From: Mycetocola miduiensis
GTDB taxonomy: Bacteria; Actinomycetota; Actinomycetes; Actinomycetales; Microbacteriaceae
Assembly (NCBI RefSeq): GCF_900115155.1
Contig: NZ_FOVM01000001.1
Coordinates: forward strand, 620,001-684,000
Direction: 5' to 3'
DNA length: 64,000 nucleotides
Part shown: piece after piece, positions 327 through 55,984 of the stretch
Layout of the letters: every line of letters starts with the position of its first letter
How positions within the stretch are numbered: the first letter of the stretch is position 1
Notes under the pieces: model-generated
What the model was told of the DNA's origin: nothing
The model's input: only the letters and a program-made list of their open reading frames with translations
Databases searched by the model: none
Translations under genes and position numbers: made by a program

Positions 327-812
327 CGCAGCGAAGCGGAGCCGAGGCATCGTTGGCGGGCACCCTTCGAGGCCCCAGATGGGGCGTCGAAGGGCAAGGA
401 GCGTAGCGACGCAGTAAGGACCCGAGGAGCGCAGTGACGAGCGGCGAGAAGCCCAACAGACCGAGCGAAGCGATGGTCCTGTGGGCTGCGAGAAATCGTC
501 GGCTACGCCGACCACCAAGCAAGATTCCATGCAGCGAAGCGGAATGGAAACGCAGGGTGGTGCCAATTTTCCTTATGCCCTTCTTCCTTTTTCCCTCGAA
601 TCCGGAGCTTTAGCGGAGGATCGAGTCATATTGCTGATGTGATCAGCGGAAAAGGATGGTTCCAACGTGTCTGGACCCACTGCTGAAACCGCAGGTTCCA
701 ATGCGAAGTGGTGGGTCCAGTGCCATCATTTTTCGCTGGTAAGTCGGGGTTTGCTTGGACCCACGGTTTAGAACGAAGTGGCACCGTGGGTCCAAGCATC
801 GAGCGAAGCGAC
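327..812. repeat. Dispersed GAGCGNAGCGA motifs
   Basis: Variants of a short motif recur: CAGCGAAGCGG near 330 and at 532-542, GAGCGTAGCGAC at 399-410, GAGCGCAGTGAC at 427-438, GAGCGAAGCGA at 463-473 and GAGCGAAGCGAC at 801-812. Inverted repeats lie between the copies. The function is unknown; similar low-complexity GAGCG-AGCGA strings are common around hypervariable accessory loci, but here I only report the pattern. Confidence 0.55.
671..796. repeat. Two related inverted repeats (GGACCCAC hairpins)
   Basis: CTGGACCCAC (671-680) pairs with GTGGGTCCAG (711-720). CTTGGACCCACGGT (754-767) pairs perfectly with ACCGTGGGTCCAAG (783-796). The two hairpins share the core TGGACCCAC and both have loops containing a GCGAAGTGG or ACGAAGTGG string, so they look like two copies of one element. 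No T-tract follows, so intrinsic termination is not obvious. Confidence 0.6.
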
Positions 813-2754: not shown

Positions 2755-4230
2755 GTGAGCGAGATCACAGGAGAGCTTGCTCGGGTCTCTGACGCGTTCG
2801 AGCGGCCGACGCTGACGCTCCTGCACCAGCGGCAGGCACCTGCGGTCGTCGCTGTGCTGAATACCTGTTTCTCGCGCGAGACGCGGATGGTGCCGACGGC
2901 GAGGCTGCACATTCTGGTCGACAGCCTGCTCGCCGAGATGACCACCTCGGGCGCTGATGATGTGCCCACGGGGTCTGGCCGGGAGGTTTGCATGCGGTGG
3001 ACGAAGTCCCAGTGGCTCATCAAGTCCACAACTCAGGATGGCAACGAGGTCTACTCGCTGACGTCGCATGCGCAGCAGGCGCTCGACTTCATCGCGAATC
3101 TCCGTCAAGAGCGAACGGGCCTGAGCGAGCACCGTATCTCGAACATCCTCGCAACGGCCAGGCGGATCAATCTCGAGAGCAACCCTGACCGCGAGTCGCG
3201 CGTCGCCATTCTGGATGCGGAGATCATCGAGCGGACGGTGGAGCGCGACAGGCTGAACGCCGGCGGCGAGATCAAGGCGATAAATGAAGACCGCATGGCG
3301 GAGGGATTCGCTGAGTTGCTTTCGCTCGTTGCGCAGCTGCCATCGGATTTCAAGCGCGTCGAAGAGGCTTTCCGTACAGTGCGCAGCGAGATCCTGGAGG
3401 ACTTTCGTTCAGAGCGCCGGGTCCCGGGAGAGGTCATCGACCGGTATCTGGAACGCATCGACCAGCTGCACGCCTCCACACCGGAGGGGCGGGCATTCGA
3501 CGGGGCCTTCGTGCTCCTGCGCGATGACGAGCTTCTGGGTCAGCTCCGCCAGGATGTGAACGTCCTGATTGACCAGGGTGAGTCGTTCCTCGTGGATAGC
3601 GACCGTGTGGAGTTGCGCGGCATCGTGCCTTTGATGAGGCAGGGCCTCGACTCTGTGCTGGATCAGCGGAGCCGGGTCACGGAGGTGTTGCGGACCTACA
3701 TCACCACAAGAGACGCAGCCAAGGACCGAGAGCTCGACCGTGTTTTGAGGTCGCTGGAGGGCGCAGTGTCCACGTGGCTATCGACAGCAGGGCCGCGGGA
3801 AAGCGTACCGGTCAGCCTGCTGCCAGGACAGGTGGAAATCGAGCACCTGCGGGAGCGGTATTACGACCCCTCCGACGACGTGCCTCTTCCCGATCTTCCG
3901 GAGGCTGATGACGAGCAGCCCGAAGGGCTCTCGATGGAAGAGCTTCGTCAACGAGGTGGTCCCCGGATGGCGGAGCTTCACGCTGCGCTGGAGGAGGCAC
4001 AGCACCGGGCAGGAGAGTGGAGTCTGGGCGAGCTGTTTGCTGAACTGCCCAAAGAGTTACGCCGGCCGGTGGACGTGCTGGGCCTGCTTCACCTGGCGAC
4101 CAACAATGACGACCTCGCCCCGACACCCGAGACTGAGACTTATTTCGCTATCCGCCCCGATGGGACCACGCGGATGTTCAATGTGCCGGTGCTTGCACCA
4201 GGCAGCTCCCCGGAGGAGGAAGAACTGTGA
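2755..4230 (+). CDS. jetA: Wadjet defence protein JetA (DUF3375)
   Basis: The 491-aa product begins at GTG 2755 and is the first of four genes whose ends all overlap. Its length, its acidic helical character and its place before DUF4194, SMC-like and Toprim genes identify it as the DUF3375 component of a type I Wadjet system. JetA is the kleisin-like subunit of the JetABC SMC complex, which senses and extrudes small circular DNA. Long helical stretches (about residues 115-260) are rich in E, R and D. The stop codon overlaps the jetB start (GTGA). Identification rests on gene context as much as on sequence, and that context is unambiguous. Confidence 0.88.
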   Translation: MSEITGELARVSDAFERPTLTLLHQRQAPAVVAVLNTCFSRETRMVPTARLHILVDSLLAEMTTSGADDVPTGSGREVCMRWTKSQWLIKSTTQDGNEVYSLTSHAQQALDFIANLRQERTGLSEHRISNILATARRINLESNPDRESRVAILDAEIIERTVERDRLNAGGEIKAINEDRMAEGFAELLSLVAQLPSDFKRVEEAFRTVRSEILEDFRSERRVPGEVIDRYLERIDQLHASTPEGRAFDGAFVLLRDDELLGQLRQDVNVLIDQGESFLVDSDRVELRGIVPLMRQGLDSVLDQRSRVTEVLRTYITTRDAAKDRELDRVLRSLEGAVSTWLSTAGPRESVPVSLLPGQVEIEHLRERYYDPSDDVPLPDLPEADDEQPEGLSMEELRQRGGPRMAELHAALEEAQHRAGEWSLGELFAELPKELRRPVDVLGLLHLATNNDDLAPTPETETYFAIRPDGTTRMFNVPVLAPGSSPEEEEL

Positions 4231-5024
4231 GCTTTATCGAGCAGACCCGCGGCGACGTCGTGGAACCCGAATGGGGTGACCCGGCTGTGCCTGTTGCCGA
4301 GGGAATAGTCGAGGACATCCGCGACGAAGTCGCGAGCACGGCTGTTGAGGACGTTGAGCCAGCCTCCACAAACTCATACTTCGACGGTGACGAGGGCGGG
4401 CTCTACCTCGAGGAGCGTCGCGCCCTTGTCGTGCTGCTGAAGAATCGGTTCATCACATCCGAGAGCCACCCGAAGGAGTGGAATACGCTCATCGCCTCGC
4501 GGCAGGCGATCAGCAAGCGACTTAACGACCTCTTCCTCGAGCTGAAGTTCGACGCAAAGCGCGAAGTCGCCTACAAGCGCCCTGTCAGCTCCGACACCGG
4601 TGGGCGCGATTTCCCCACCCTCGTGCACGACACGATCTGGCAGCGTGAGGAGACTGCGCTGCTGGTTTTCCTCCGGGTCCAAGCCCGGAACGACGAGATT
4701 CGTGGCGAGGTGCAGTCCCCCATCAGCGAGGCAGACATGCTGGAGTTCCTCCGCGACAACAGACCGGAGTCTGCCACCAACCAGGTCTCGGACGACAAGA
4801 GGGCGGGCAGGGCGATCAAGGCCCTCACGAGCGCGGGGCTTCTCATGAAAACCAACGAAGACGGCGTGTTCCGGATCTCGTCAGCGATCGAGACGATGCT
4901 TCCGGCGCCCGTTTTGAACAACCTGCTGACGTGGATCAACGTACGCAATGAATCCGGCCCCCAGATCGGCCCCGAGATCGGCCCCGAGGCTGAAGCCGAA
5001 CCGACCGAAGAGGAATCCTCGTGA
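4227..5024 (+). CDS. jetB: Wadjet defence protein JetB (DUF4194)
   Basis: The 265-aa product begins at GTG 4227, overlapping jetA by 4 bp. JetB is the KITE-like winged-helix subunit that binds the kleisin JetA. The DUF4194 core runs from about residue 50 (LYLEERRALVVLLKNRFI) through the region RALVVL, WQREETALLVFLR and ISEADMLEFL to about 240. The last 20 residues are an acidic tail with IGPEIGPE and many glutamates, probably disordered. The stop overlaps the jetC start. The gene is required, with the other three jet genes, for restriction of plasmids in the systems studied. Confidence 0.88.
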   Translation: MSFIEQTRGDVVEPEWGDPAVPVAEGIVEDIRDEVASTAVEDVEPASTNSYFDGDEGGLYLEERRALVVLLKNRFITSESHPKEWNTLIASRQAISKRLNDLFLELKFDAKREVAYKRPVSSDTGGRDFPTLVHDTIWQREETALLVFLRVQARNDEIRGEVQSPISEADMLEFLRDNRPESATNQVSDDKRAGRAIKALTSAGLLMKTNEDGVFRISSAIETMLPAPVLNNLLTWINVRNESGPQIGPEIGPEAEAEPTEEESS

Positions 5025-8000
5025 CCTTGCTCCAGCAGATCTCGGCGATGATCGAGACCAACGAGCCGCAGTGGCGGGCAGAGCAGCTTCAGGTCGTGAA
5101 CTGGGGCGGCTTCCACGGGCACGCGAGCGTACGTTTTGCCCCCGAGGTGACCGTTATCAGTGGGTTGTCTGGCGCAGGGAAAAGCTCGCTGCTGGACGCG
5201 TACCTCGCGCTGATGATGCCTCCGAACGTGCCGTTCAACGGCGCGTCTAACGACTCCGGATCAGGCCGCGCCCGCTCGGCCGAGCAGCGAAACCTGCTGA
5301 GCTATCTCCGCGGCAAACTCGACGACACGCTCGAAGAAGGCGAAGTCGTCGACCGCGTGATGCGGGGCCGCGGGACGCCCACCTGGGGCGCTGTGGCGAT
5401 GACGTTCGTCAGCGAGACCGGTGAGCGCCACACGGCGGCGCGGGCATACTTCGTTCCTGCGCGTGCCGCGCGCTCAGCCGACATCAACGTCATGCGTTTG
5501 ATGACGGTCCCCGGCGAATTGGACCTGCGCGAACTGAAGCCGTTCGCGACCATGGGCGAGTTTCACTTCCCGCCGCGCCAGCTGAAGGCCTCATGGCCAG
5601 ATATGGCCACTTTCGACTCGTACAACTCCTTCGCGCAGGCGCTCTTTGTCAAGCTCGGCATCGGCACGGGTGGTGACGGCACGAACGCGCTGCGTCTCTT
5701 GGCACGCATCCAGGCCAGCGAGGACATCTCCACGGTCGACAAGCTGTACAAGGACCTCGTGATCGATCGGCCCGACTCGTATGAGAAGGCCGACTCCGCG
5801 ATCGAGCACTTCGACCGGCTGGAAGACGTCTACCAGGAGATGGTGACGGCTCAGGAACGCGCTGAGTTGCTTGAGCCGATCACAAGCGCCTACGAGGCGC
5901 TGGTCCGGGCGCAGGACGCGATCGACAATGACAACGAGCTCGGTGCGCTGGATGCTGAATCCTCCCCAGCCGGGCTCTGGCGTATGCGCCGGCATAGCGG
6001 GATCCTCGCCCGCGCCATAGAGAAGAACCGCTCCGCTGCGTTTGATGACCGCGCGACGCTGAACGAACTCCACGCAACGGAGCAGCGACTCACGAGCCAG
6101 CTCGCAGCGACGAAGAAGGCGCACAGCGAGGCAGGCGGTGATCTGCTGATCGACCTCGGCAACTTGATCGAGGCTGCCGGGACTCAGGTAAAGACACGCG
6201 AGGAACGCCGGGCTCGACTGGTGAAGGACACCATGTCGCTGACAGCGACGATCACATCCCGCGAGGAGTTTGAGAGCCTCCAGGAAAAGGGTCGTGAGTT
6301 CCTCACCGAGCATGAAAACGCAGCGGAACGGTTGAGTACTCGGCGCGACGAGGTCCGCGAGGGCAGCTGGCCGATCAGGGATCGCCTGAAAGATATCCGC
6401 CTGGAGCTGGACTCCCTTGATAACCGCTCGGGGCGGGTCGACCAGCACCTCCACGACATGCGTGAGGCGGTCGCCGAGGCCTCAGGGCTCGATCTGTCAG
6501 ATCTCCCGTTCGTGGCTGAGTTGATTGACGTCATGCCTGAGGAGGAGCACTGGCGAACCGCCATCGAGACCTCTTTGTACAGCGGCGCCCGGCTCATGCT
6601 GGTCCCGCTGGAGCACCTGGAGCGCTTCTCCCGGAATATCGACACCCTGCACCTGAAGGGGCGTCTCAACTTTGAGGGAGTTGCCCGGTCGAAGACCCAG
6701 CAGCAGTCGATCCTCGAGCCAGACCGCGTTGCAGGGAAGCTTCGCTTCAAGGACTCGCCGTACCAGAGCTGGGTCACCGACTACGTGCAGCATCCCTCAC
6801 GCAACGCACTCTGCGTCGCGGGTCCTGGGCAGCTGGATGGCAACGACCTGCGGATCACTCTTGCGGGCCAGACCCGGCGAGGGCGGCGAGGCAGCCATGG
6901 CCGCCAGTCTTCGCGCAACGTCATCGGCTTCGACAACGCCGACCTCAAGGTTGAACTTGCACAGGAGCGGCAGATCCTCGAGGCGCAGCTGAAGACAATC
7001 GAAGATGAGGCTGCCCGGATTGGCGCAGGAATCGCGTCCCTCAGTTCGAGGAAAGAAGCGTACGGACGCGTCCTGAGCGAGATATGGCCGGATCTCGACG
7101 TTGCCGCCGCGGTGGCGGAAATGCAGGATCTGTCGCGACGTCGCGACGAGATTCGCGACAACAACGACGTCTTGGGCGAGCTCGACCGCCAGATATCAGA
7201 GCTCAGCGACGAGCTGGAACGCGTGCAGGGGCAGCGTCACCTGTTGAATCGTGCGATCAGCGACCTCAACGATGTTCACCTGAAGTATTGCGAGCGTGAA
7301 GACGAGATCAATCCCGTTCTTGCCCGCGTGGACGATGCCGGAGTCCTACTTCGCGACGAGTTGGCGCGCGATCTGGACGCCCTGTGGGCGAAGGTGATCG
7401 TAGACGAAGCTGAACTCCCGGAGTCCTTCGAGCGGCAGCTCAGCCGCCTGCGCACCGAACTGAAACGCCGGAACGATGAAGCCCAGGTCGAGGTGATGCG
7501 TTTGACGCAGCAGCTTGAGGCGATCTTCAAGCGGTACAACAAGGATTACGACGACGACCCGAATCGCGGCGAGACGGTTTCCTTCTACGACGATTACGCA
7601 GCCATTCTCGATGGCATCGTGCAGTCAGGTTTGCGCGAGCGGCGCGACGAGTGGCGGCGCCGGTTGCTGGTATGGAGTGGCGAGCACTTGCAGCAGCTGG
7701 CCACTGGTCTGAGCTCGGCTATCGAGGAGATCGAGGACCGCCTCGAACCCATCAACCTGATCCTCAAAGACCTGCCGTTCGGCGCCACGAGCGACCGGCT
7801 CCACATCCACTTGCGCCGACTCACACGCGACCTGGTGGTGCAGTTCCGCAAGGAACTGCACCAGCATGCCCGGATGGCGACCACAGGGTTCAGCGACGAG
7901 GAACTGGAGAAGCGCTTCAAGGACCTGCGGCGATTCATGGCCCAGATCCGGCGCAAGGACGATGTGCGGCTTCCTCGGGAGCTTGTCGACGTGGCAAATC

Positions 8001-8428
8001 GCGACCGTCTTCTCGATGTCCGCCAGCACGTCGAGATCAGCGCTGAGCGTCGGGACCTCGCTGGGGCCACCCTGAGCGTCTACACGTCGCTCCAAGGGAA
8101 GAGCGGTGGCGAGATGCAGGAGCTGATCGCCTTCATCGTCGGTAGTGCACTGCGGTTCCAGCTCGGGGACCAGCAACGCTCGCGTCCGAGGTTCGCCCCG
8201 GTCTTCCTCGACGAGGGATTCATTAAGGCGGACGGGCAGTTCACGGCGCGCGCTGTTGAGGCGTGGCGCGGCCTGGGCTTTCAGCTGATCATCGGTGCCC
8301 CTGTCGACAAGGCACCTTCTCTTGAGCCCCACGCAGAGGTCATCGTGGAGATCGCCAAGAACCTCACCACGAACCGGTCCTACGTCCTCGAGATGCGTGG
8401 GCTCGATGACGGGAGCACCACAGTATGA
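5021..8428 (+). CDS. jetC: Wadjet SMC-like ATPase JetC
   Basis: The 1135-aa product begins at GTG 5021. It has a P-loop GLSGAGKSS at residues 48-56, long coiled-coil arms (roughly 240-490 and 650-1000), an ABC signature KSGGE with Ser1028, and a Walker B FLDE with Asp1064-Glu1065 near the C-terminus. This is the architecture of MukB/SbcC-like SMC proteins. JetC is the loop-extruding ATPase of the complex that recognises small circular DNA. All ATPase motifs are intact, so the protein should be active. The gene overlaps jetB upstream and jetD downstream by 4 bp each, which suggests tight translational coupling and fixed stoichiometry. Confidence 0.93.
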   Translation: MTLLQQISAMIETNEPQWRAEQLQVVNWGGFHGHASVRFAPEVTVISGLSGAGKSSLLDAYLALMMPPNVPFNGASNDSGSGRARSAEQRNLLSYLRGKLDDTLEEGEVVDRVMRGRGTPTWGAVAMTFVSETGERHTAARAYFVPARAARSADINVMRLMTVPGELDLRELKPFATMGEFHFPPRQLKASWPDMATFDSYNSFAQALFVKLGIGTGGDGTNALRLLARIQASEDISTVDKLYKDLVIDRPDSYEKADSAIEHFDRLEDVYQEMVTAQERAELLEPITSAYEALVRAQDAIDNDNELGALDAESSPAGLWRMRRHSGILARAIEKNRSAAFDDRATLNELHATEQRLTSQLAATKKAHSEAGGDLLIDLGNLIEAAGTQVKTREERRARLVKDTMSLTATITSREEFESLQEKGREFLTEHENAAERLSTRRDEVREGSWPIRDRLKDIRLELDSLDNRSGRVDQHLHDMREAVAEASGLDLSDLPFVAELIDVMPEEEHWRTAIETSLYSGARLMLVPLEHLERFSRNIDTLHLKGRLNFEGVARSKTQQQSILEPDRVAGKLRFKDSPYQSWVTDYVQHPSRNALCVAGPGQLDGNDLRITLAGQTRRGRRGSHGRQSSRNVIGFDNADLKVELAQERQILEAQLKTIEDEAARIGAGIASLSSRKEAYGRVLSEIWPDLDVAAAVAEMQDLSRRRDEIRDNNDVLGELDRQISELSDELERVQGQRHLLNRAISDLNDVHLKYCEREDEINPVLARVDDAGVLLRDELARDLDALWAKVIVDEAELPESFERQLSRLRTELKRRNDEAQVEVMRLTQQLEAIFKRYNKDYDDDPNRGETVSFYDDYAAILDGIVQSGLRERRDEWRRRLLVWSGEHLQQLATGLSSAIEEIEDRLEPINLILKDLPFGATSDRLHIHLRRLTRDLVVQFRKELHQHARMATTGFSDEELEKRFKDLRRFMAQIRRKDDVRLPRELVDVANRDRLLDVRQHVEISAERRDLAGATLSVYTSLQGKSGGEMQELIAFIVGSALRFQLGDQQRSRPRFAPVFLDEGFIKADGQFTARAVEAWRGLGFQLIIGAPVDKAPSLEPHAEVIVEIAKNLTTNRSYVLEMRGLDDGSTTV

Positions 8429-9582
8429 AGCAACCCGCTGACATTGTCGCTGCGATCGAGAGCCGCCTGACGAAGACGTGGGCGCAGACGCTCACCCTTG
8501 AGAGCGACAAAGCGGCGTGGCCGCATCGATTCCCGCTGTCGGGGGGCTCTTCACGCGCCATCGGAGATGACTTCACCACCGTGGTCCGTGTTGTCGCGGA
8601 CTGGCGCGACTGGGCGCAGGGATTCAACGCCGAGCTCGTGGACCGTGCCAAGCGTATTGGTGTCGTCACCCACTCGATTCCCTCGCACCTGTTCGTCCCT
8701 TCGATCGACGAGGCTGCACGGATTTTGGGCGCCGAGTGGCAGAGCCGTCTTGAGAGGGGTCGTGACCGGCTGACCGAGCTGCGCCTGCGGTTCCCGGAGC
8801 TGGTGGGGCTCTCCGGCCTTCTGAAAGCAGTCGACGGCTTCACCGACGTCGACTTCGACTTACTGCTGCGGGCAGGCGCGTGGTTCGCCGAGAACTCTGC
8901 GGACGGTCTCACGCCACGGCAGGTGCCGCTGGAGGGCTTCCACGCGAAATGGCTGGACACCAGACAGCATCTGGTAGCGACCCTCGCCGGAAAGCCGGAC
9001 CTCGCTCTTGCCCGTAATCATCCGCCGAGGATCCACTTCAGCTATCTCGACCCTGATTACCTCGCGCGAGGAGGACGCAAGCACGACAGCGCCAGCGTTG
9101 GAGATAGCTTCGCGCCGGCGTATGCCCCGCAGGTTGTGATCATCTCCGAAAATAAGGACACCGCCGTCAACTTCCCCGAGCTTCCTGGTGCCATCAGCGT
9201 CGAAGGGGTGGGCCGAGGAGGCGGGACGATCGCATCCTTCGGCTGGCTCGTGAACGCCTCGGCCATCATCTACTGGGGCGACATGGACGCAGACGGGCTG
9301 GAGATATTGGACGGCTTCCGCGCAGCTGGTGTCCCGGCGCGCTCGATGTTCATGGACACTGAGTCGTTCGATTTCTGGGAGCGGTACGGGACCAACGTCA
9401 ACAAGCACGGCGTTGTGCTGACAGCGCGGGAGCCTCGTCCCGTGCCGTATCTCACTGACGACGAGCGCAAGCTTTACCTCGGTCTGGTGCACCCGTCATG
9501 GTCACGGAACCGCCGCATCGAGCAGGAGAGGATTCCTCTCGCAGTTGCCCGCGCCAAGGCTGTCGTGGCAAGTGGCGGCTGA
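8425..9582 (+). CDS. jetD: Wadjet nuclease JetD (DUF3322/DUF2220, Toprim)
   Basis: The 385-aa product begins at ATG 8425 (ATGA overlap with jetC). The N-terminal DUF3322 region is followed by a DUF2220 Toprim-like nuclease domain. The catalytic acidic residues are visible: Glu242 in IISENKDT and the DxD motif Asp286/Asp288 in YWGDMDADG. JetD cleaves the circular DNA handed over by JetABC. Because the Toprim residues are present, the nuclease looks functional. The gene ends 4 bp from the convergent KfrA-like gene. Confidence 0.92.
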   Translation: MKQPADIVAAIESRLTKTWAQTLTLESDKAAWPHRFPLSGGSSRAIGDDFTTVVRVVADWRDWAQGFNAELVDRAKRIGVVTHSIPSHLFVPSIDEAARILGAEWQSRLERGRDRLTELRLRFPELVGLSGLLKAVDGFTDVDFDLLLRAGAWFAENSADGLTPRQVPLEGFHAKWLDTRQHLVATLAGKPDLALARNHPPRIHFSYLDPDYLARGGRKHDSASVGDSFAPAYAPQVVIISENKDTAVNFPELPGAISVEGVGRGGGTIASFGWLVNASAIIYWGDMDADGLEILDGFRAAGVPARSMFMDTESFDFWERYGTNVNKHGVVLTAREPRPVPYLTDDERKLYLGLVHPSWSRNRRIEQERIPLAVARAKAVVASGG

Positions 9583-9586
9583 AGGG

Positions 9587-10171
9587 TTACCTGTCCTCGT
9601 CGGCTCCTGGGATACGCGCAATCAACGCAGCGAGCGTCTCACGCAGCGTCTGATTGGTAACCCGTTCCTCAACGAGCTGCCTCTCCAGATCGGCCCGTGC
9701 CTGTCCAGCAGCCTGCAACTCTGCCGTCGCACGCGTTTCATCGGCTCGAGCTGCTTCGAGCGCCGCCTCAAGCGCCGTGCGTTCGTTCGCGTGAGCCTCG
9801 GCTGCAACGATCGCAGCCTGATCCGCAGCGTCGAGATTCTCCCCAAGCTCGGTGATCTCCTCCTCCTGCAGCATTACCTGCGCCCGCCATTCCCGCTCGA
9901 CAGCCGCGTGCGATGCAGCGGCCAGCGTCGACGCCTCCCCCCACATCAGGCCGGCGACTCGATGCAACTGTTCCACGAGCGCCGCGGGAAGCGCACCGAT
10001 CGTCGCGCCTGACGAAGCTTGCACCTCTCGCCATCCACGGAGATAGCGGGTGGCGTCAGCGTTGTTGACGCCGGCGCGCTCCCGGACGGTTGCGACAGTA
10101 GGCTTTCCTCCGTCGCGCTCGATGCTGTCGGCAGCTGCGTGGACTCGCGCTTCGGTGCTGGTCTCGCTCAT
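9587..10171 (-). CDS. KfrA-like coiled-coil DNA-binding protein
   Basis: The 194-aa product starts at ATG 10171, which has AGGA close upstream; a TTG three codons earlier is possible. Residues 1-60 resemble the KfrA N-terminal DNA-binding domain (ARVHAAADSIERDGGKPTVATVRERAGV, then ATRYLRGWR). The rest is an alanine/glutamate-rich coiled coil with heptad pattern. KfrA proteins are plasmid-associated transcriptional autoregulators and segregation aids. This copy converges on jetD with a 4-bp gap. Whether it works with the Wadjet system or is a leftover from a plasmid or integrative element is unknown. Confidence 0.6.
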   Translation of the reverse strand: MSETSTEARVHAAADSIERDGGKPTVATVRERAGVNNADATRYLRGWREVQASSGATIGALPAALVEQLHRVAGLMWGEASTLAAASHAAVEREWRAQVMLQEEEITELGENLDAADQAAIVAAEAHANERTALEAALEAARADETRATAELQAAGQARADLERQLVEERVTNQTLRETLAALIARIPGADEDR

Positions 10172-10375
10172 GGTCCTCAATTCGGTAGTAACATGGTCGC
10201 CACCGACACGCTACCACTAGTGTCATTATCACCGCTACTCGTAATTACTACTACTGGTACTACTACCGGGGTCGCTATCGAAGAGCCGCGGCGGGCACCA
10301 GAAGCGCGGACGTCGCGGTCGAGCCAGTAGCAACAGGGGTTTCCCTCCTGCGGGCCACCGGCGCATACTGCCACC

Positions 10376-10525
10376 ATGGACGACGACGACGACGACGCCT
10401 CGTTCGAGGCTCCGAACTGCCCGCAGTGCCTTGTGCGGCTCGACCTGGCAGGGACGATTGAGCATCCGTACTGGCTGTGTCCTGTCTGTCGCTCGGCGCA
10501 TCTCAGCTATGTGGCGATCGGCTGA
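10376..10525 (+). CDS. Small CxxC-CxxC zinc-ribbon protein
   Basis: A 49-aa reading frame from ATG 10376 to TGA 10525. It starts with six aspartates and contains CPQC (residues 15-18) and CPVC (35-38), spaced like a zinc ribbon. No obvious Shine-Dalgarno sequence is near the start, only a purine-poor leader. It is too short to assign a function; such small zinc ribbons are frequent in actinobacterial accessory DNA. The paired cysteines are the main reason to believe it is real. Confidence 0.5.
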   Translation: MDDDDDDASFEAPNCPQCLVRLDLAGTIEHPYWLCPVCRSAHLSYVAIG

Positions 10526-10693
10526 TACTAGGCGTTCTCAGTCCGTCGTAACCATCTGTGGTAGTCCAGGAGGCCGGGTGATGGTCGGAGCGTCAACCTA
10601 GTCGGGCTCGAAGTGGCGGCCGAATATCCGCCCGACGGTGGCGGATCTACCCGCCAAAGCAGATGCGCCACCTTGTTGAGCGCGGGGTCTCGG

Positions 10694-11083
10694 CTATGCG
10701 GCATTAATGAAGGCTCGTGCGGCGGCGAGCACTTCTCGTGCGCGGCCTTCGGCGAGAACCTCAGCCGGGGTCTCGTCATTCAGCCGTGGGTTCATTCCCA
10801 TGAACCAGGCTCGAGCGACAGGCGCGGCGTCCGTCGTCGTGAGCAGGGTCATGATCTGAAGCGTGTCGCGGAGGCGCTGCTCTGATGCTTGCGGAGGCTG
10901 AACGTCACCGCTCACCCAACGGGCGACCGTCCGCGTGTCCCGCCCGACGATGACGCTGAGGAGCGCCTGGCCCAGCTGCTCTTGCAGCGCAGCGGCGACA
11001 TCGGTGACGCTGAGCTCAACTGACCGTGCGTGGGCGTTTATCTGCACCCGCGGCCCCGAGACTCGTGTCGCTGAATCGGTCAT
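10694..11083 (-). CDS. Xre/MbcA/ParS-like antitoxin-type protein (orphan)
   Basis: The 129-aa product has a predicted N-terminal helical DNA-binding part (VELSVTDVAAALQEQLGQALLSVIVGRDTRTVARWVSG, about residues 23-60). A DUF2384-like C-terminus follows, with ARAWFMGMNPRLNDETPAEVL and a final AAARAFINA. That C-terminal pattern is the toxin-binding module of Xre/MbcA/ParS antitoxins. No RES-type toxin gene is adjacent. It may be an orphan regulator. It is the second such protein near the Wadjet operon, the other being at 1816-2475. Confidence 0.6.
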   Translation of the reverse strand: MTDSATRVSGPRVQINAHARSVELSVTDVAAALQEQLGQALLSVIVGRDTRTVARWVSGDVQPPQASEQRLRDTLQIMTLLTTTDAAPVARAWFMGMNPRLNDETPAEVLAEGRAREVLAAARAFINAA

Positions 11084-11170
11084 GATTCCACCTCCGGTGG
11101 TCTTGCTGTCATCCTAGAGTGCGGTCTCTTGTCGGGCAATATGTCGGGTGCAATGCCCAGCCTGGTCAGC

Positions 11171-11525
11171 CTACTGCCGTCCCGGGCTTCGTGTCGTAAA
11201 GCTTTTGCATTCCGCCGGCAGCATGCCGCCATTTCCGCTCTCGAGGAGATGGACGCGAGCGCTTGGGACGGTGCGCTTGGTGCCGTATTTCTGTCGGACG
11301 TTGGAGGCTGCCAAGGCTTCGAGCGCATCGGCGATCGCGGACCAGGATTTGGCCAGCGGCGCATCTGTGCGTATTTGGTCGACGCAAGAACGAAGCAACT
11401 CGTTGGTGCAATCGCGCGCGGCGCTCAGTGCATGAGTTCTTCGAGTGAGGCGGGCCGGTGTGTGCTCAGGCAGTTGAGCTCGCCGGTGGCGGTGCTGAGG
11501 GCTTGCTCGCTGTTGCGCTAGTTAT
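11171..11525 (-). pseudogene. Possible decayed gene in two frames
   Basis: On the minus strand one frame reads a natural-looking peptide ending SLEELMH at about 11429. A second frame overlaps it and continues (SWSAIADALEALAASNVRQKYG) to a stop at 11171. Neither part has a good start codon. Together they look like one small gene broken by a frameshift. I recognise no family, so this is weak. Confidence 0.25.
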
Positions 11526-11576
11526 TTGCCTCCTCTTACGTGCTTAGGGGCGCTGTTTTTCAGCGACAAACAGCAA

Positions 11577-12026
11577 ATGCACCGCCGATTGAAAATTCGG
11601 CGGTGCATGCTCGTCGGTGAGAATGGCGGGTGAGGACGTGTTTCTGGTTTTGCCTGCACCGCCGATTGATTTGCCAATTTCCATCGGCGGTGCACGGTTT
11701 TGGGTGTTTTCTCTTGATTTTTCAATAAAAAGATAGAGAAACCAGAGAGATGCACCTTATGCACCGCCAGTTTCGAGAATCTATACACACACATGCGCGC
11801 ACACACGCACACATAGAAAAGTTGAAATCTCGCGGTGCATACGGTGCATTGGGTTATTTAGCCTGATGGGGCGGCGAAAACCGTGTTTTGCGTCGCGGTG
11901 CAATCGGCGGTGCACGTTCTTGTCGGCAGTGCCATATGTGCATCGGATTTGGAGTCTCATCAGGTACTTTAGCGTCGTTGATCGAGCGCATTACCGCACC
12001 GCTGATCGTTGTGGATCGGCGGTGCA
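11577..12026. repeat. Iteron-like array of TGCACCGCCGAT, partly palindromic
   Basis: At least eight full or partial copies. Inverted pair 1 is ATGCACCGCCGA 11577-11588 with TCGGCGGTGCAT 11597-11608. Inverted pair 2 is TGCACCGCCGAT 11655-11666 with ATCGGCGGTGCA 11683-11694. Single copies are TGCACCGCCA 11760-11769, ATCGGCGGTGCA 11903-11914 and ATCGGCGGTGCA 12015-12026. Shorter GGTGCAT or GGTGCA copies are at 11834-11840, 11843-11849 and 11897-11902, and ATGCACC at 11750-11756. The surrounding DNA is AT-richer than the genome and includes a CA/GC-alternating run near 11786-11816. This could be a set of operators or a replication/partition iteron array for the gene at 12178. Confidence 0.75.
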
Positions 12027-12177
12027 CGGTTTTCACCCCTGGAAAGACGTGCTTCAGCATGCTTTTCCGTTCCTCGTCGACCTAATCCATGGACACCAGT
12101 CGAGATCCTCCAGCTTCCCGATCGCGGCACCACCTTGGGGAGTTTCGGCTCCCGATGGCATGCGACATCATCGAAGC

Positions 12178-13614
12178 ATGGGGAGTCGGCGAGTATTCGA
12201 GATAGCGAATGACGCCGGTGTCGACGTGCAGACGGCTCTCGCCGCACTGGCGAGGCTCGGATCCGACGTGACCGAGCCGACAAAGCGACTCGACCCCGGC
12301 CTAACGCGGAAGCTTGGCGGTGCACTTGGCGTGCCCTCGATCACACCTGAGGCTGTACTGGAGTCGCCGTGGCAGCCGCCGGTTCGCCGGGCTCCTGCTC
12401 GACCGGTAGTCGACCGAACCAAACGGACACTCTCGCGACCGCAACGGACGCTCCGGCCGATGCCGAAAAACGTTCTCGGCCTGGAGCACACGAACGCGGT
12501 TCTGCAGATGATCCCAAGCCTGTACGACCTGCTGCTCCGCTGTGGCAGTTCACCTGCCGCGGGCGGTGTCGTCGTCATCTACCACGATGCACGTCTGCGA
12601 CCCGAGTACGGCTTATCCACCTTGAGCCGCAAGCCTTGGATGCCGCCAACCGCGAGCGGGGTCACCAGAGATGCGCTCCTCGGTCCGCTTCGTGCGCTCG
12701 ATCGCCAGTACCGGGACCACGCGCTCATGCCCCCGAACATGTTCATTGCCGTCGACGTGCCGAACAGACGCGCTTGGTTCAGCCGGTCCTTCCAGACGCG
12801 GCCGAAGGGGCCGTTCCTGGACGCGACCACCTCGGAGCCGATCCCTGAGGTGCTAGCGGGTCCGCCCGCCCGGCTGGCAGACAGGGCGCAGATTTTCTAT
12901 CCAGAGCACGTTCCGGCGCTCGCGCGCGACCTCAGCGCGCCCCAAGACAGCCCGGAAGAAGCGTTCCTGCTGCATGAAGAGCTGCTTCAGCTCGCCGTCG
13001 ACAGTCTCGACAGCGACGAGCAGCTCGACCCGCTGCCCGTGCACCTCAACGGGCTGTGGGTCTTCGCCCGGCCGATCATCATGCGGCGGCCCGACGGCAG
13101 CGAGCGACACGTCCGCGCAGTCTGGTACCGGCAGGGTGAGGTCGTCTGGCGGATGCGCACCTTCGCTGCCGGAATCGGCAACGACCCCAAGGAAGTCGGT
13201 GAGCGACTGGCCGGACGGCTGCCGTTCGTGCCGGTCTGGGACGAAAGCCGCCCAGAGTCGAAACTCCTGGCGGCCGTCTGGGCTTTGATGGCGCAAGGCG
13301 GAATCACGGAGTCCGATCATCAAACTTCGGATCGCGGCCCTTCGGCCGAGAATCCGGAGCGCGGCGACTTGACCATCGTGCGGGTGAAGGCGGGCACCGA
13401 TCACGCGCAGGTCTATCGGAACGACGACCCGAGCAATTTCATCGACCGACCTGCATGGAGCGTCCGCGGGCACTGGCGACACCAGCCGTACCCGTCGCTG
13501 GGGCGTGACGAGGCGGGCAATGTCATCACGAAGATGAAGTGGATCGCGTCCTATTCGAAGGGTGACGCGCGTGATTTCGCCCCCAGGGACAAGGTGATCG
13601 TCGTCCGTCCGTAA
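12178..13614 (+). CDS. Protein with IF2_N-like N-terminus, function unknown
   Basis: Starting at ATG 12178 (another ATG lies at 12160) the product is 478 aa; upstream in-frame codons run through the repeat array and are unlikely to be translated. Residues 5-47 match the IF2_N fold (RVFEIANDAGVDVQTALAAL, then VTEPTKRLDPGLTRKL), a small DNA/RNA-binding-like helical domain found in translation factor IF2 and in some fused proteins. The C-terminus contains RGHWRHQPYPS and MKWIASYSKGD, a tryptophan-rich pattern that I recall from proteins of actinobacterial plasmids and phages. No catalytic motif was recognised. The repeat array upstream may be its binding site. Confidence 0.55.
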   Translation: MGSRRVFEIANDAGVDVQTALAALARLGSDVTEPTKRLDPGLTRKLGGALGVPSITPEAVLESPWQPPVRRAPARPVVDRTKRTLSRPQRTLRPMPKNVLGLEHTNAVLQMIPSLYDLLLRCGSSPAAGGVVVIYHDARLRPEYGLSTLSRKPWMPPTASGVTRDALLGPLRALDRQYRDHALMPPNMFIAVDVPNRRAWFSRSFQTRPKGPFLDATTSEPIPEVLAGPPARLADRAQIFYPEHVPALARDLSAPQDSPEEAFLLHEELLQLAVDSLDSDEQLDPLPVHLNGLWVFARPIIMRRPDGSERHVRAVWYRQGEVVWRMRTFAAGIGNDPKEVGERLAGRLPFVPVWDESRPESKLLAAVWALMAQGGITESDHQTSDRGPSAENPERGDLTIVRVKAGTDHAQVYRNDDPSNFIDRPAWSVRGHWRHQPYPSLGRDEAGNVITKMKWIASYSKGDARDFAPRDKVIVVRP

Positions 13615-13737
13615 CGGCCACCAGAGCCCTTCTGCACTGCTCGTAAACCGGACTGTCATCAAGGAGGATGAAGGGGACCCTAACCGGGAACCCTAAGCGG
13701 GAACGCCCTCCGGGACGCGGCAATCGAAGCGGATGGC

Positions 13738-14022
13738 CTACCGGGCCAGGCCTTCGATTGAGTAACGGCGTTCAATTCCTGCCGTGACTCGGCCCCATTC
13801 GCTCCCCGCGACGCGCTCCTGGTGCAGCTTGAAGACACGCTCGTCCTCGAAACGCTCCTCAACGGACCAGACCAAAGGGTCCCCAGCCGCGGTAACTTCG
13901 AACGAGACACACCCGGGCTCGGCGCGCGTGCGCTCGATGTGTTCAGCGAGGTGAAAAGTTACGATCCGCGCCTCATCCTCGGACTTGCAAATGAGTTGGC
14001 CGGTGAGGTGTATTTCGCTCAT
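13738..14022 (-). CDS. Antibiotic-biosynthesis-monooxygenase (ABM) fold protein
   Basis: The start MSEIHLTGQL at 14022 is preferred because upstream codons are arginine-rich and unlike the family. The 94-aa product has the ferredoxin-like ABM pattern: a first strand, HLAEHIERTRAEPGCVSFEV, then WSVEERFEDERVFKLHQER. Related small proteins are quinol or heme-degrading monooxygenases, often dimeric. The substrate cannot be deduced. It stands alone, oriented toward the gene at 12178. Confidence 0.65.
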   Translation of the reverse strand: MSEIHLTGQLICKSEDEARIVTFHLAEHIERTRAEPGCVSFEVTAAGDPLVWSVEERFEDERVFKLHQERVAGSEWGRVTAGIERRYSIEGLAR

Positions 14023-14762
14023 GTACCCACCATATGACGCAACTCGGTGTCCAATAGACGGACGTCTACGGACACAGAATTGTGGCCGCACTTCTAAACT
14101 TTGCGGAGTGTTGGCGACTTATCACTTCGGAACCTTGAACAGGCCGTTAACGAGAGCGGCGGCGCGTACCGCCCGGTCTTCAGCCTGCGGTGCACCGACG
14201 AGCGCGCCACAGCAACCAGATACCGACGATCAAGGTGGCAGGTGATAGAAGAACCAGCGTCAAATAGACGGGGAACACGCGAACAGCATCAAGTCTTCTG
14301 TCGCACTGCGCGCGTTCTAGAGAACAGAAGACAGAATGACCAAAAGCGGGACGAGAGTCGCCACCCACTTTTTCCTAAGTTCGCCATGTTCGCGACATTT
14401 ACACCATGACAACCCCAATCGCCCAGCCGGCAACGAGGACCAGGAAGCTTCCGACCGTCACGAGCAGCGCTGCCGTGATCACGAAGCTGGATGTTTCCAG
14501 GCAACCTCTGACGCAATCGAAGGAGAAGAGGTACGCCCGCGCCTACGCTCCAGCACGTGGGCGACAGGCGTCCGGGGGAAAGATTGCGAACTCCCTGAGA
14601 TGAATTAACCTCCATGCCGCCGGCGGGGCACGCCTGCATGGAGGAGATTGTGATGAATAGCGTCATTTGAGCGGAAACCTCGCATGCCCAGCAGCGGGAA
14701 ACTCACCTCCCGCCGAAAACGAACCTGCTTATTAACCGAACCGGTGGATCCACGCTAAGTCG
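14023..14762. other. Intergenic region without a convincing gene
   Basis: About 740 bp. Two short minus-strand frames could encode single transmembrane helices: one near 14405-14500 with TAALLVTVGSFLVLVAGWA, and one ending at 14180 with PATLIVGIWLLWRARR. Neither has a clear start codon and ribosome-binding site, so they are probably remnants. A hairpin lies at 14609-14644. Confidence 0.4.
14609..14644. terminator. Possible terminator hairpin
   Basis: CCTCCATGC (14609-14617) is complementary to GCATGGAGG (14636-14644), enclosing a GC-rich loop. It lies downstream of the minus-strand operon that ends at 14763, so it could stop that transcript. No long T-tract is visible on the minus strand side. 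Confidence 0.4.
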
Positions 14763-43680: not shown

Positions 43681-43745
43681 TTGGACCGGGGATTCTGTTG
43701 AGGACCGGGTCTAATCGCGCGGACGTTGATGCGGAAAGTGGAATG

Positions 43746-43818
43746 TGGAGCCTAGGGGAATCGAACCCCTGACCTCCTGCTTGCAAAGCAGGCGCTCTAC
43801 CAATTGAGCTAAGGCCCC
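43746..43818 (-). tRNA. tRNA-Ala (TGC)
   Basis: The cloverleaf starts GGGGCCTTAGCTCAATTGG and has anticodon TGC in CTTTGCAAG. The acceptor stem contains the G3-U70 pair that identifies alanine tRNAs. CCA is not encoded. It is 35 bp from tRNA-Ile on the same strand, as usual near gyrA in this order. Confidence 0.95.
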
Positions 43819-43997: not shown

Positions 43998-44006
43998 CCA
44001 GCACGG

Positions 44007-44407
44007 CTAGTTGTTTGTGAACCCGACCAGCAGCCCACCGGTGATTTTCACGCTGAGGTTGTAGAGAGCCGCACAGAGCGCACCGAGCGCGGTCACAACG
44101 ACGAGGTTGAGGATCGCAACGACGACAGCGAAGCCCATCACGCGACCGAGGTTGAAGATCGCGGTGAGATCCTGGCCTGCTCCGGCAACCTCGGTAAACA
44201 GCGAGTTGACCTGATCGAAGATCTTCGTCTGATCGAGGACCGTGTAGATCAAGAAGAACACGACAATGGTCACGATGGCGAGAGCCACCGCGAGGAGGAA
44301 CGACAGCTTCACTGCCGACCAGAAGTCGATGTAGACCAGTTTCAGCCGTACCTGCTTGGTCGACGTGCGCTTGCTCGACTTGTTCGCGAGCTTCTCGGCA
44401 ACGCTAC

Positions 44408-44411
<4 letters not shown>
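44007..44411 (-). CDS. DUF3566 membrane protein
   Basis: The 134-aa product has a short basic N-terminus and two clear membrane helices ([24 protein letters not shown] and [21 protein letters not shown]). DUF3566 proteins follow gyrA in many Actinobacteria; their function is not established. The start overlaps the gyrA stop by 4 bp, so it is co-translated with gyrase. Confidence 0.88.
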
Positions 44412-49025
<4,614 letters not shown>

Positions 49026-49141
49026 TTAGGCTCCAAACCGTTTTCGTGCTCGACATGTAATTCTATCAAGATCGAGAGTGCTTCGGGGCGGATATGCCCA
49101 TCTGAGCCACTTTTACCGGACAGGCGACCAGATTTGTCTGG

Positions 49142-49648
49142 TTAACCATAGGTATCGCGCACGCCACGCCCCTGAACCGATCTGGGACCGCGTTTGAAGG
49201 TTGGGACGTTGGGTCCCAGAAAACGGATGCTCTCGATTCCTGCTTCCGGGTACCTCACGGCGATGTGCGTCATGATGTCAACGCGCATCAACCGGAGCTG
49301 TGTCGCCCATGCCGTCGATTCGCATTGCACGCTGAGCACACCCTGTTCGATCCCGACCGGCGTTGAGTGGTTCGCCGTCTCTTCACCGGCGAGCTCTTTC
49401 CAGTTGGCGACGAGGTCGGATTGGGCGAGCGGCGAATCCCACCCGAGCTGGCTCGTGAGGGCACCCAGCACATCGCCGACCCCCTTCGGATCGCGACCGT
49501 GGCCGAATGGAACACTCTCGGCCGGGTCGATCTTGCGGTTGCGTTTGGATCGGGTGAAGTGCTTGTGGCCGCCGAAGAGTTCCTTGAATCGGATATAGAC
49601 CCGGGCGGATTCGGAGAGCGGTTCGTTTCCCTGGTTCGGCTCAGCCAC
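49142..49648 (-). CDS. dciA: DciA-like DUF721 protein
   Basis: The preferred start is GTG 49648, overlapping the recF stop, and gives 168 aa. The DUF721 core runs from GALTSQLGWDSPLAQSDLVANWKELAG to VLSVQCESTAWATQLRLM. In bacteria without DnaC, DciA helps load the replicative helicase DnaB, which fits its place next to recF and gyrB. The N-terminus is basic and probably disordered. Confidence 0.85.
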   Translation of the reverse strand: MAEPNQGNEPLSESARVYIRFKELFGGHKHFTRSKRNRKIDPAESVPFGHGRDPKGVGDVLGALTSQLGWDSPLAQSDLVANWKELAGEETANHSTPVGIEQGVLSVQCESTAWATQLRLMRVDIMTHIAVRYPEAGIESIRFLGPNVPTFKRGPRSVQGRGVRDTYG

Positions 49649-50825
49649 GGGCAACCTCCTCCGCCGTTTCGAGGATGCGGCCGGCGGAGATGTGCACCGT
49701 ATGCGCGGTGAGGCCCTCCGGGACGTCGTCGAGAACGGCGGCCGTGATGAGGACCTGCTCAAATCCGCCGACGGCGGCGGCCAGCCGGGCCCGACGGTTC
49801 AGGTCCAGTTCGGCGAACACGTCGTCGAGAATGAGGACCGGGTCACCGGAGTTGGAGCCCCGACGAAGCAACTCTGCGGATGCGAGCTTGAGCGCGAGCG
49901 CGAACGACCAGGTTTCGCCGTGACTGGCGTAGCCCTTCACCGGCAGTGAATTCAGCTCGAACAGCACGTCGTCCCGGTGCGGTCCGACGAGGGTCAATCC
50001 GCGATCGAGCTCACTGCGGCGCTGCAGGGCGAGCGCCGCGCGGAACCGTTCTGCCGTCGCGGCGGTTTGTTCTTCGGAGGCTGCCGAGCTTCCGCTCGTC
50101 GACGGCGCATCCGCGTCGGTGTCGACCCCATCGATGCTGAGAAGTGCGGAAAGGGCAGGACCGTGATCGTCGCCGACGACGGAAGCGTAGGCATCCCGGA
50201 TCGGCTGTTCAAGCGCTGCCACCAGTGCCACGCGCTCGTCGATGATTTCGGAACCCAGTGACACCAATTTGTCGTCCCAGATTTCAAGCGTGGTCAGCTG
50301 ATTTGCCTTCAGACCAGACACCCGGGCCGACTTCAAAAGGGAGTTGCGCTGTTTCAGGGTGCGCTCGTAGTCGCTGAGCACCCCGGCGAGGCGGGGAGTG
50401 TGCAGCACGAGCAGTTGGTCGAGAAAGCGGCGCCGGCCGGACGGGTCGCCGCGGATGATGCCGAGGTCTTCGGGGGCGAAGAGTACGCTGGAGAAGTACC
50501 GGGGCAACTCGCGCGGCTTGATCTGGCCGCGATTGATCTGGGCTCGGTTCGCGCCCGTGCGGTTGATCTGGACCTCGGCGAGGAGATCGCGACCGTTGTG
50601 CTGCAGCCGGGCTCGAATGATTGCAGCGTCTTCACCGGCTCGAATCAGAGCGACGTCGGTCGAGACGCGATGGGAGCCGAGCGTTGAGAGGTAACCAAGC
50701 GCTTCGACGAGGTTGGTTTTGCCCTGGCCGTTGCGTCCGACGAAAAGGTTGGCTCCCGGCACCATCGCCACATCAGCGACCGCATAGTTGCGGTAATTGC
50801 TGAGGTTGAGGTGGGTGACGATCAC
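49641..50825 (-). CDS. recF: DNA recombination/repair protein RecF
   Basis: The 394-aa product has Walker A GRNGQGKT (residues 30-37), the SMC-like signature region SHGETWSFALALKLASAELL and Walker B VLILDDVFAELD. RecF binds gapped DNA and helps load RecA. Length and order are as expected between gnd and dciA. Confidence 0.95.
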   Translation of the reverse strand: MIVTHLNLSNYRNYAVADVAMVPGANLFVGRNGQGKTNLVEALGYLSTLGSHRVSTDVALIRAGEDAAIIRARLQHNGRDLLAEVQINRTGANRAQINRGQIKPRELPRYFSSVLFAPEDLGIIRGDPSGRRRFLDQLLVLHTPRLAGVLSDYERTLKQRNSLLKSARVSGLKANQLTTLEIWDDKLVSLGSEIIDERVALVAALEQPIRDAYASVVGDDHGPALSALLSIDGVDTDADAPSTSGSSAASEEQTAATAERFRAALALQRRSELDRGLTLVGPHRDDVLFELNSLPVKGYASHGETWSFALALKLASAELLRRGSNSGDPVLILDDVFAELDLNRRARLAAAVGGFEQVLITAAVLDDVPEGLTAHTVHISAGRILETAEEVARG

Positions 50826-50849
50826 CGGTAAAGCCTACCGATGACGCCT

Positions 50850-50891
50850 GACAGCCTGCGTCAGTTGTCGGACAGCCTGCGTCAGTCGTCG
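50850..50891. repeat. 21-bp tandem duplication at the gnd stop
   Basis: GACAGCCTGCGTCAGT starts at 50850 and again at 50871, with a 21-bp period and one mismatch (TTGTCG versus CGTCG). The second copy includes the gnd stop codon. It looks like a recent local duplication, without visible effect on coding. Confidence 0.75.
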
Positions 50892-51772
50892 GATTTCTTG
50901 ACCGAGTGGCCGCCGAACTGGTTGCGCAGTGCGGCAACGGCCTTCATGGCTGGCGAGTCGTCCTGGCGCGATACGAAACGGGCGAAAATGGATGCTGAAA
51001 TCGTCGGCACGGGGACGGCATTCGCGACGGCTTCCTCAATCGTCCAGCGGCCCTCGCCCGAATCCTCGACATAGCCCTCAATCTCGGAGAGATCATCATC
51101 TTCGTCGAGTGCACGAACCAGCAGTTCGAGCAACCAGGAACGTACAACGGTGCCGCGTTGCCAGGCTTTAAAGGTTCCGGGGACGTCGCGGATGATGTCT
51201 TCGCGCTTCTCGAGCAGTTCAAAACCCTCGGCATACGCTTGCATAAGCGCGTATTCGATGCCGTTGTGCACCATTTTCGCGTAGTGGCCGGCGCCGACTT
51301 CTCCGACGTGCACAAATCCTTCTTCGCGCGGTCCTTCCGGTCGAAGGGCATCGAAGACCGGCATGAGCCGCTCAACCTGCGCTGTTGAACCGCCGACCAT
51401 GAGGCCGTAACCGTTCTCCAGCCCCCACACACCACCGGACACACCGACGTCGATGTAGTCGATGCCCTTGGCAGCGAGGAGCTCGGCGTTCTTGAAGTCT
51501 TCGGTGAACCGGCTGTTGCCGCCATCGATGACCAGGTCGCCTGCGTCGAGACGGTCGCTGAGGTCAGCGACGACGGACGACGTGATTTTTCCGGCGGGAA
51601 CCATCACCCAGATCGTGCGGGGCGATGGCAGTGCCGCGATGAGCTCCTCCACGGTAGCGACGTCGCAGACATCCGGATTCTGGTCGAAACCAGTGACTTC
51701 GATCCCTGCGTTCCGCAGCCGGGTTCGCATGTTGCCGCCCATTTTGCCGAGTCCGATGAGGCCGATGTGCAT
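50882..51772 (-). CDS. gnd: 6-phosphogluconate dehydrogenase (short, decarboxylating type)
   Basis: The 296-aa product has the cofactor motif GLIGLGKMGGNM, then VIDGGNSRFTED, GVSGGVWGLENG and KMVHNGIEYALMQAYAEG. The short form of about 300 aa lacks the long C-terminal part of the classical 470-aa enzyme and is often NAD-preferring. It makes ribulose 5-phosphate and CO2 from 6-phosphogluconate. Location between dnaN and recF is typical for this lineage. Confidence 0.93.
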   Translation of the reverse strand: MHIGLIGLGKMGGNMRTRLRNAGIEVTGFDQNPDVCDVATVEELIAALPSPRTIWVMVPAGKITSSVVADLSDRLDAGDLVIDGGNSRFTEDFKNAELLAAKGIDYIDVGVSGGVWGLENGYGLMVGGSTAQVERLMPVFDALRPEGPREEGFVHVGEVGAGHYAKMVHNGIEYALMQAYAEGFELLEKREDIIRDVPGTFKAWQRGTVVRSWLLELLVRALDEDDDLSEIEGYVEDSGEGRWTIEEAVANAVPVPTISASIFARFVSRQDDSPAMKAVAALRNQFGGHSVKKSDD

Positions 51773-51802
51773 GCGAGAAGTCCTTCGGGTTTGGTGTGTG
51801 GG

Positions 51803-52951: not shown

Positions 52952-53059
52952 GGTTGGATCCCCTGTCGTTTCAAGGTACGAGTGGTTCCCCATGTTAGTC
53001 GGGTCGGAGAAGCACTGTCATTCACGTCTTCGCGCGAGGTTCACGAGCCCAAGGCGACC

Positions 53060-53345
53060 GACCGAAAAGGTTATTGGCCAGAGAGAAAGTTAAAGATTAG
53101 TTAATGGTCTTAACCGCTGTGGAAACTGTGGATAACTTCCGACACGCTAGCGATTTCATGGGAACTACAACTGTGTGAGTTGTTGGTCGTGTGTGCAATC
53201 GCTGTCAGCTACATTCCATGCGATTACTGGCATCCGAGGCGGTTCTGCACATTCCGGAGAGATCCGTTCACAGAATCGGAGGAGTTTTCAGGCGAGTTTC
53301 CACAGGGTTATCCACATTGTGTACGACGCCTCAGTTTCCACAGCG
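53060..53345. promoter_or_regulatory. Origin-region sequence between dnaN and dnaA
   Basis: An AT-rich patch near 53068-53110 (AAAGTTAAAGATTAGTTAAT) is followed by DnaA boxes TGTGGATAA at 53127-53135 and TTATCCACA at 53308-53316. Several TTTCCACAG-like strings lie between and after. This is probably part of oriC and contains the dnaN promoter. Confidence 0.7.
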
Positions 53346-53367
53346 TTAACCGCCTGTGAGCACTGCT

Positions 53368-55131: not shown

Positions 55132-55269
55132 ATGAGCAAGAGAACGTTCCAGCCGAACAACCGCCGTCGCGCCAAGGTGCACGGTTTCCGTTTGCGCATG
55201 CGCACCCGCGCCGGCCGTGCCATCCTCGGTGCACGCCGTCGTAAGGGCCGCACCGAACTTTCCGCGTAG
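55132..55269 (+). CDS. rpmH: 50S ribosomal protein L34
   Basis: The 45-aa basic protein starts [20 protein letters not shown] and ends [11 protein letters not shown], the complete L34 pattern. It is too short for ordinary gene listings but unmistakable. It begins the rpmH-rnpA-yidD-yidC-jag-rsmG series. Confidence 0.97.
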
Positions 55270-55298
55270 CACCCTGGCTTCGGCAACCCGTCGTTCTC

Positions 55299-55978: not shown

Positions 55979-55984
55979 TCCCAC

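Follow-up and report, generated by a model that had tools for sequence, protein, structure and literature searches.

Features of the Locus

The DNA under investigation is a stretch of 64,000 nucleotides (hereafter, the window) from the genome of Mycetocola miduiensis (Microbacteriaceae), spanning contig positions 620001-684000. It includes part of a 49-kb island bounded by att-like repeats, inside which a cluster of short repeated words is flanked by a broken gene remnant and by a gene starting at 12178. The features relevant to the analysis are the following:

671..798: another repeat cluster, distinct from the array (TTGGACCCAC / GTGGGTCCAA), with a homologue in genome G006
10694..11083, minus strand: small gene resembling the C-terminal part of Xre/MbcA/ParS antitoxins, with a weak match that stays under the curated cut-off
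11270..11490, minus strand: broken remnant, N-terminal part of the gene for a stand-alone Pox_D5-domain protein, 5' end towards the array
11577..12026: array of iterons (TGCACCGCCGAT units, four inverted pairs), a putative origin of replication
11708..11787: stretch with an AT fraction of 0.64, which may be an unwinding element
11751..11848: array core, inward-facing doublets TGCACC-TTA-TGCACC ... GGTGCA-TAC-GGTGCA, 68 bp apart
11782..11815: alternating purine/pyrimidine tract of 34 nt, the longest such run in the window
12178..13614, plus strand: adjacent gene, IF2_N-like at its N-terminus, which does not accompany the array constantly
43744..43790: perfect 47-bp direct repeat that extends into tRNA-Ala and closes the island on the right

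This repeat has its second copy at contig position 614810, to the left of the window, 49 kb from the first; the tyrosine integrase of the element, also left of the window, is 80% identical to one in G006.

The analysis of the array revealed five exact copies of TGCACCGCCGAT, at 11578(+), 11655(+), 11683(-), 11903(-), and 12015(-), plus three inexact ones, at 11596(-) with one mismatch and at 11760(+) and 11995(+) with two, in agreement with the eight full or partial copies in 450 bp counted by the initial annotation. The five exact copies are the only ones in the whole 3.3-Mb genome, where 0.74 would be expected by chance (1e-4 per 450 bp), while the reversed word, used as a control, has none; the cluster is, therefore, real and unique. 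Allowing up to two mismatches, the window contains 20 matches versus 10.5 expected, and the 12 lying outside the array, every one with two mismatches, are close to the chance number. Eleven TGCACC/GGTGCA hexamer cores are embedded in the array versus 0.29 expected. Two inverted pairs had been reported; inverted pairs do exist, but their number is four (11578/11607, 11655/11694, the doublets 11750-11773/11826-11849, and the degenerate copy at 11995 with 12015-12026). The array is also AT-richer than the window, as previously noted (0.48 vs. 0.37), and its richest AT 80-mer, at 11708, is equalled or beaten by just 0.03% of the window 80-mers (sampled every five bases). Its predicted fold as single-stranded DNA greatly exceeds those of shuffled sequences in stability (z -7.1), as expected from its inverted repeats, and the alternating tract would be prone to adopt the Z-DNA form. 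Clustered iterons in noncoding DNA and an AT-rich core between iteron groups, two traits of the replication origin of an element with a P4-family primase/SF3 helicase, are thus both present.

Homologous Arrays in Other Genomes

The array region was used as a DNA query against 398 genomes of the same family, a sample of a larger group, and matched six of them, its own included. In G277, the match lies within the array (90 nt, 75% identical), and the whole array was recognized when the region was read out, with GTACCGGCGATTG where the window has TGCACCGCCGATTG; the neighbouring ORFs were read as rpsF, ssb, rplI, and dnaB. A third homologous array, whose iteron is GTACCCGTTTCGC, was found in G006, where it adjoins a 194-aa relative of the stand-alone Pox_D5 protein and not a full primase. 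Both arrays are about 470 bp long and keep the scaffold of the window array, with iterons of the GTACC type. A profile built from the three arrays retrieved a fourth one on a 174-kb contig of G054 (nhmmer E 2.3e-16), at a distance of 5.6 kb from the gene for a P4-family primase-helicase (DUF5906, Pox_D5, TIGR01613) and surrounded, on reading of the ORFs, by plasmid- or phage-like genes; hence, the window array is homologous to arrays lying beside P4-family initiators.

The comparison of the first three arrays disclosed a concerted change of the repeated word. The base that distinguishes TGCACC from TGTACC keeps the window state at none of the 12 aligned sites of G277 (the 11 cores plus the degenerate one at 11995, counted by reading alignment columns) and at one of the 11 sites of G006, while 56% and 52%, respectively, of the non-core columns are still identical to the window array. 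A core base changed in concert on such a background suggests the action of a trans-acting protein, and argues, as far as the sequences tell, for recognition of the array by a protein later than the separation of the lineages. Most likely, the arrays make up an actinobacterial family whose members share a layout but differ in the repeated word.

No match was retrieved by blastn from plasmids and phages, either with the window region or with the G006 array, and the exact inverted-pair pattern is present in one of the 398 family genomes (the window genome itself) and in no viral contig. A pattern based on the purine run matched seven viral contigs, none of which is array-like by reading.

Arrays and P4-Family Primase Genes

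The loci were scored by one rule for two-strand k-mer clusters. Nine of the 15 loci found by protein similarity to the Pox_D5-domain protein have an array scoring 10.5-22.2, compared to none of the 19 controls (11 stretches taken at round-numbered positions in the same genomes, plus eight others from the collected loci), which do not exceed 8.6, with a threshold chosen after the data were seen. This comparison leaves out five loci: the window and L042 (a decayed array, score 5.3), both identified from an array or a DNA match; L043, initially a DNA match (6.2); L035, found via the gene at 12178 (9.9); and L086, which continues L085 (5.2). With these five included, the Mann-Whitney p is 0.0026. 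Eight of the 15 loci (L085, L087-L093) were fetched once the look of an array was known, and three of them score high; the remaining seven were fetched before or while that look was being learned. A clear array is absent from six of the 15 (L061, L089-L093), two of which are weak members: L091 (E 3.7e-4) and L093, matched outside the Pox_D5 part and bearing an internal stop. In L076, the GTAGGAC array taken by itself has a score of 11.7; the top-scoring repeat of that locus is another word, GAGACC, which is found 15 times in 450 bp (8097-8543) near the D5 primase gene and is distinct from the GTAGGAC array.

The iteron words differ from one array to another (GTACCAC, CGCTACA, GTGCAAC, TGGAACA, ATAGACG, and others). 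All eight full-length partners carry DUF5906 and Pox_D5, and TIGR01613 is present in all three helicases tested (G054, G437, and G006). The doublet core, with at most one mismatch, occurs in 10 of 12 arrays, and every one of the 12 includes an 80-mer belonging to the top 0.5% of its own locus for AT content. Alternating purine-pyrimidine runs reach 32, 34, and 36 nt in the arrays of G006, G054, and G322, and 8-13 nt in the other eight of the 12; in four arrays, the window one included, a tract of 32-36 nt is the longest of its locus. Judging from these sequences, the shared plan consists of iteron pairs that point inward from both sides of an AT-rich core.

The same organization is found on a complete circular Streptomyces plasmid of 639 kb (NBC_01454, NZ_CP109461.1), whose array (5466-5895, score 21.0) lies 0.5 kb upstream of the primase gene (6380-8221). 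Conversely, pGKT2 (NC_018580.1), a plasmid likewise found by its primase, has no array within 9 kb, so that the association with the primase is strong but not universal.

The doublet core alone has a wider distribution, being found in 115 (TGTACC) and 10 (TGCACC) viral stretches. A D5 match exists in five of these 125 and is absent from the DNA examined of the other 120; hence, the doublet layout is not exclusive to a D5 initiator and may serve more than one initiator. The same 105-bp span recurs in 77 of the 115 TGTACC stretches (L117-L231; the TGCACC set is L232-L241). The proteins encoded in about 6 kb around the core of L143 and L141 include a phage ATPase, a member of an HNH-endonuclease family, and a terminase.

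The Stand-Alone Pox_D5 Protein

The remnant beside the window array shows similarity in two frames (11490-11431 and 11431-11279), with a frame change near 11431. Since this similarity covers residues 19-89 only, the Pox_D5 part is not seen in the window itself; its relatives of 194 and 219-224 aa do carry Pox_D5 (PF03288). Genome G369 matches the degenerate stretch 11321-11491 and encodes there a 224-aa protein with a C-terminal Pox_D5 domain (Pfam E 5.4e-6). When this protein was used as a query, matches were found in 11 of the 398 family genomes and in five of the 376 genomes sampled from the order. Among them, an intact 194-aa relative is encoded by G006 and degraded ones by G277 and by the window; elsewhere, the matches are longer frames aligned in their C-terminal part. 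The matches to longer D5 proteins start at residue 59 or later, indicating that the stand-alone protein has an N-terminal part of its own. Its relatives were not found in plasmids, phages, or viral contigs, nor in the other four genomes of the genus of G006, and sequence comparison with the PDB returned insignificant matches only. The ORF is chromosomal in G006 and is located on a short contig in G369. Upstream of the G369 gene (L043:3830-3942), there are four CTGTTGA words in two orientations, possibly a short array, whose score (6.2) falls within the control range.

The genome of M. miduiensis has no match to Pox_D5 or DUF5906. A cognate P4-family primase/helicase gene in the same element is, thus, found in relatives and lacking here, and the array was classed as a relic or orphan rather than a working member of the family.

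The second repeat cluster of the island (671-798) is homologous to one located about 0.9 kb after an intact P4-family primase gene of G006, which suggests that the island once harboured that primase too. Six CTGGTACC words (L112:10939-11077, score 11.0) lie downstream of the G006 gene, and several copies show a matching change between the GTGGGTCCAA cluster of the window and the homologous GTGGGCCCAA cluster of L112.

The Gene at 12178

The initial annotation connected the array to the protein encoded directly downstream, at 12178, described as carrying an IF2_N domain. The domain is credible, being recognized in the G006 homologue (Pfam E 1.3e-9), though no Pfam match to it was obtained for the window protein. 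Residues 1 to 60-76 of the product match part of frames of 939-957 aa, which we take to be IF-2, in four genomes of the genus (own included), and the structure model has a pLDDT of 53. The gene is rare, occurring in five of the 398 family genomes (E 1e-15, own included) and at two loci of the wider genome-contig set, one of them (L011) in Herbiconiux moechotypicola; the G297 homologue is split over frames.

The link with the array was not borne out. The 1.5 kb upstream of five homologues (L011, L012, G081, G006, and G297) contain a single copy of the 12-mer with up to two mismatches, in L011, versus eight in the window, and arrays recur without the gene. An array of the same architecture with another motif does immediately follow the G297 homologue, and the G006 homologue has one at a distance of about 8 kb. 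Eight array-bearing P4-primase loci (L060, L075-L078, L085, L087, and L088) have no match to the gene in the stretches examined. A Pox_D5/P4-family primase-helicase gene accompanies the array more consistently than the gene at 12178 does; of the previous proposal, the replication-type iteron module inside the island is retained and the gene at 12178 as its partner is not.

Possible Function of the Array

On the whole, the array is probably an orphan origin embedded in the 49-kb tRNA-Ala island. We consider it likely, on the strength of the sequence comparisons, that replication of an element of the P4-family primase/D5 type started from it, and that this origin is now integrated and orphaned. 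According to this model, an initiator with a C-terminal Pox_D5-type domain would bind the iterons, its oligomers being placed by the inward doublets on either side of a core that is AT-rich and alternates purines with pyrimidines; this core would then melt and an SF3-type helicase would be loaded. At present the array is presumably inactive for lack of a cognate initiator.

The mechanism is supported by known systems. Rep of the staphylococcal pathogenicity islands (SaPI) and Cch2 of SCCmec recognize the iterons of their origins through their C-terminal domains, and binding is retained by the Cch2 domain in isolation (PMC7581432); the alpha protein of phage P4 binds the ori repeats with its winged helix (PMC4234260). 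The likeness to the Staphylococcus systems concerns the iterons near an initiator-helicase gene and their reading by the C-terminal domain (PMC7581432), and that to P4 the P4-family primase/helicase and the winged-helix domain acting on ori repeats (PMC4234260). However, in SaPI/Cch2 the helicase gene is immediately followed by the origin, whereas the window array has no helicase, and the inward-doublet core, the alternating tract of four of the 12 arrays, and the actinobacterial hosts have no counterpart there. Repeated initiator sites are also found in classical iteron plasmids and in the PLE origin, where RepA binds a repeat (PMC7145576); these differ from the present arrays in the initiator family. 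A classical origin of the Rep_3/RepA_N type found no support: no such Pfam match was obtained with six genes of 5021-14091 (seven queries), nor, more in general, among the Pfam-searched ORFs of the window and of the relatives' loci.

Other explanations were evaluated. The array might be a regulatory or incompatibility site, whose iterons are bound by the stand-alone Pox_D5 protein for the control of copy number, of partition, or of its own promoter. The gene or its remnant does point its 5' end at the array in the window, in G277, and in G006, and the protein, with its own N-terminal part, is intact in G006 and G369 at 44% mutual identity. Still, the eight loci listed above display the same layout beside full primases and have no match to residues 1-58 of the stand-alone protein in the stretches examined, and the AT-rich core suits an origin; this possibility appears unlikely. 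Unlikely as well is that array and stand-alone protein form a separate two-part module, i.e., an origin-reading domain without a helicase, by which plasmids entering with a related origin may be countered through interference or incompatibility; the window version of the module adjoins a Wadjet-like anti-plasmid system. A multi-site operator of the gene at 12178 would account for the position of the array directly upstream of it, and an array of the same type directly downstream of the G297 homologue might be cited in its favour; but no cluster of the motif precedes any of the five homologues examined, the upstream alignment shows, by reading, little conservation past the last few tens of bases, and arrays recur at loci devoid of the gene, making such a role improbable.

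Two further interpretations are hardly plausible. A transfer origin (oriT) or a recombination site (attP arm sites) could be invoked on account of the relaxase matches near some arrays (above the Pfam cut-off in L076, below it in L075 and L078) and of the integrase and att-like repeats of the window element; yet 32 kb separate the array from the att-like repeat at tRNA-Ala, no relaxase was recognized by reading among the ORFs near the L077, L087, and L088 arrays, and the plasmid NZ_CP109461.1 was typed as non-mobilizable. A structured RNA or terminator hairpins, to which we attach equally little credit, would agree with the strong predicted folding and with one pair scanned as terminator-like on the minus strand, but there is no Rfam match at E up to 1, the units vary in spacing and face either way, and the word is also repeated in direct doublets, which stems would not require.

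If the array is indeed an orphaned origin of a P4-family element, it would disclose an origin layout for such elements in actinobacteria, usable to find origins from sequence, and the variable word in a constant frame would provide a natural series on the reading of DNA by Pox_D5-type domains. For a Pox_D5 protein standing alone next to an origin, a role in control or interference would be uncommon. In the open-access literature searched, no paper combined Microbacteriaceae with iterons, the papers listed in a search including DUF5906 did not contain that term, and the listed titles disclosed nothing about such arrays; being limited to open-access sources, this is weak evidence of novelty.

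Other Genes of the Island and Its Surroundings

The Wadjet-like operon (2755-9582, plus strand) comprises a JetC-like gene (SbcC_Walker_B/AAA_29) and jetD (JetD_C, DUF3322), both assigned by Pfam; the two genes ahead of them were taken as jetA and jetB from position alone. It is directly followed by a KfrA_N-domain gene on the minus strand (9587-10171), upstream of which repeated words of the TAGTAGTA type are present near 10220-10300. A small zinc-ribbon-like ORF is located at 10376-10525 (plus strand), with a look-alike, recognized by eye, at L032:18494-18622. Homologues of the small gene at 10694-11083 are found 0.4-1.7 kb from D5 matches in L085 (twice), L086, L089, and L092. Lastly, the ORFs of the region 44000-61200 were read as gyrA, gyrB, recF, dnaN, dnaA, rpmH, parA, and parB, which would place the chromosomal origin region about 40 kb from the array.
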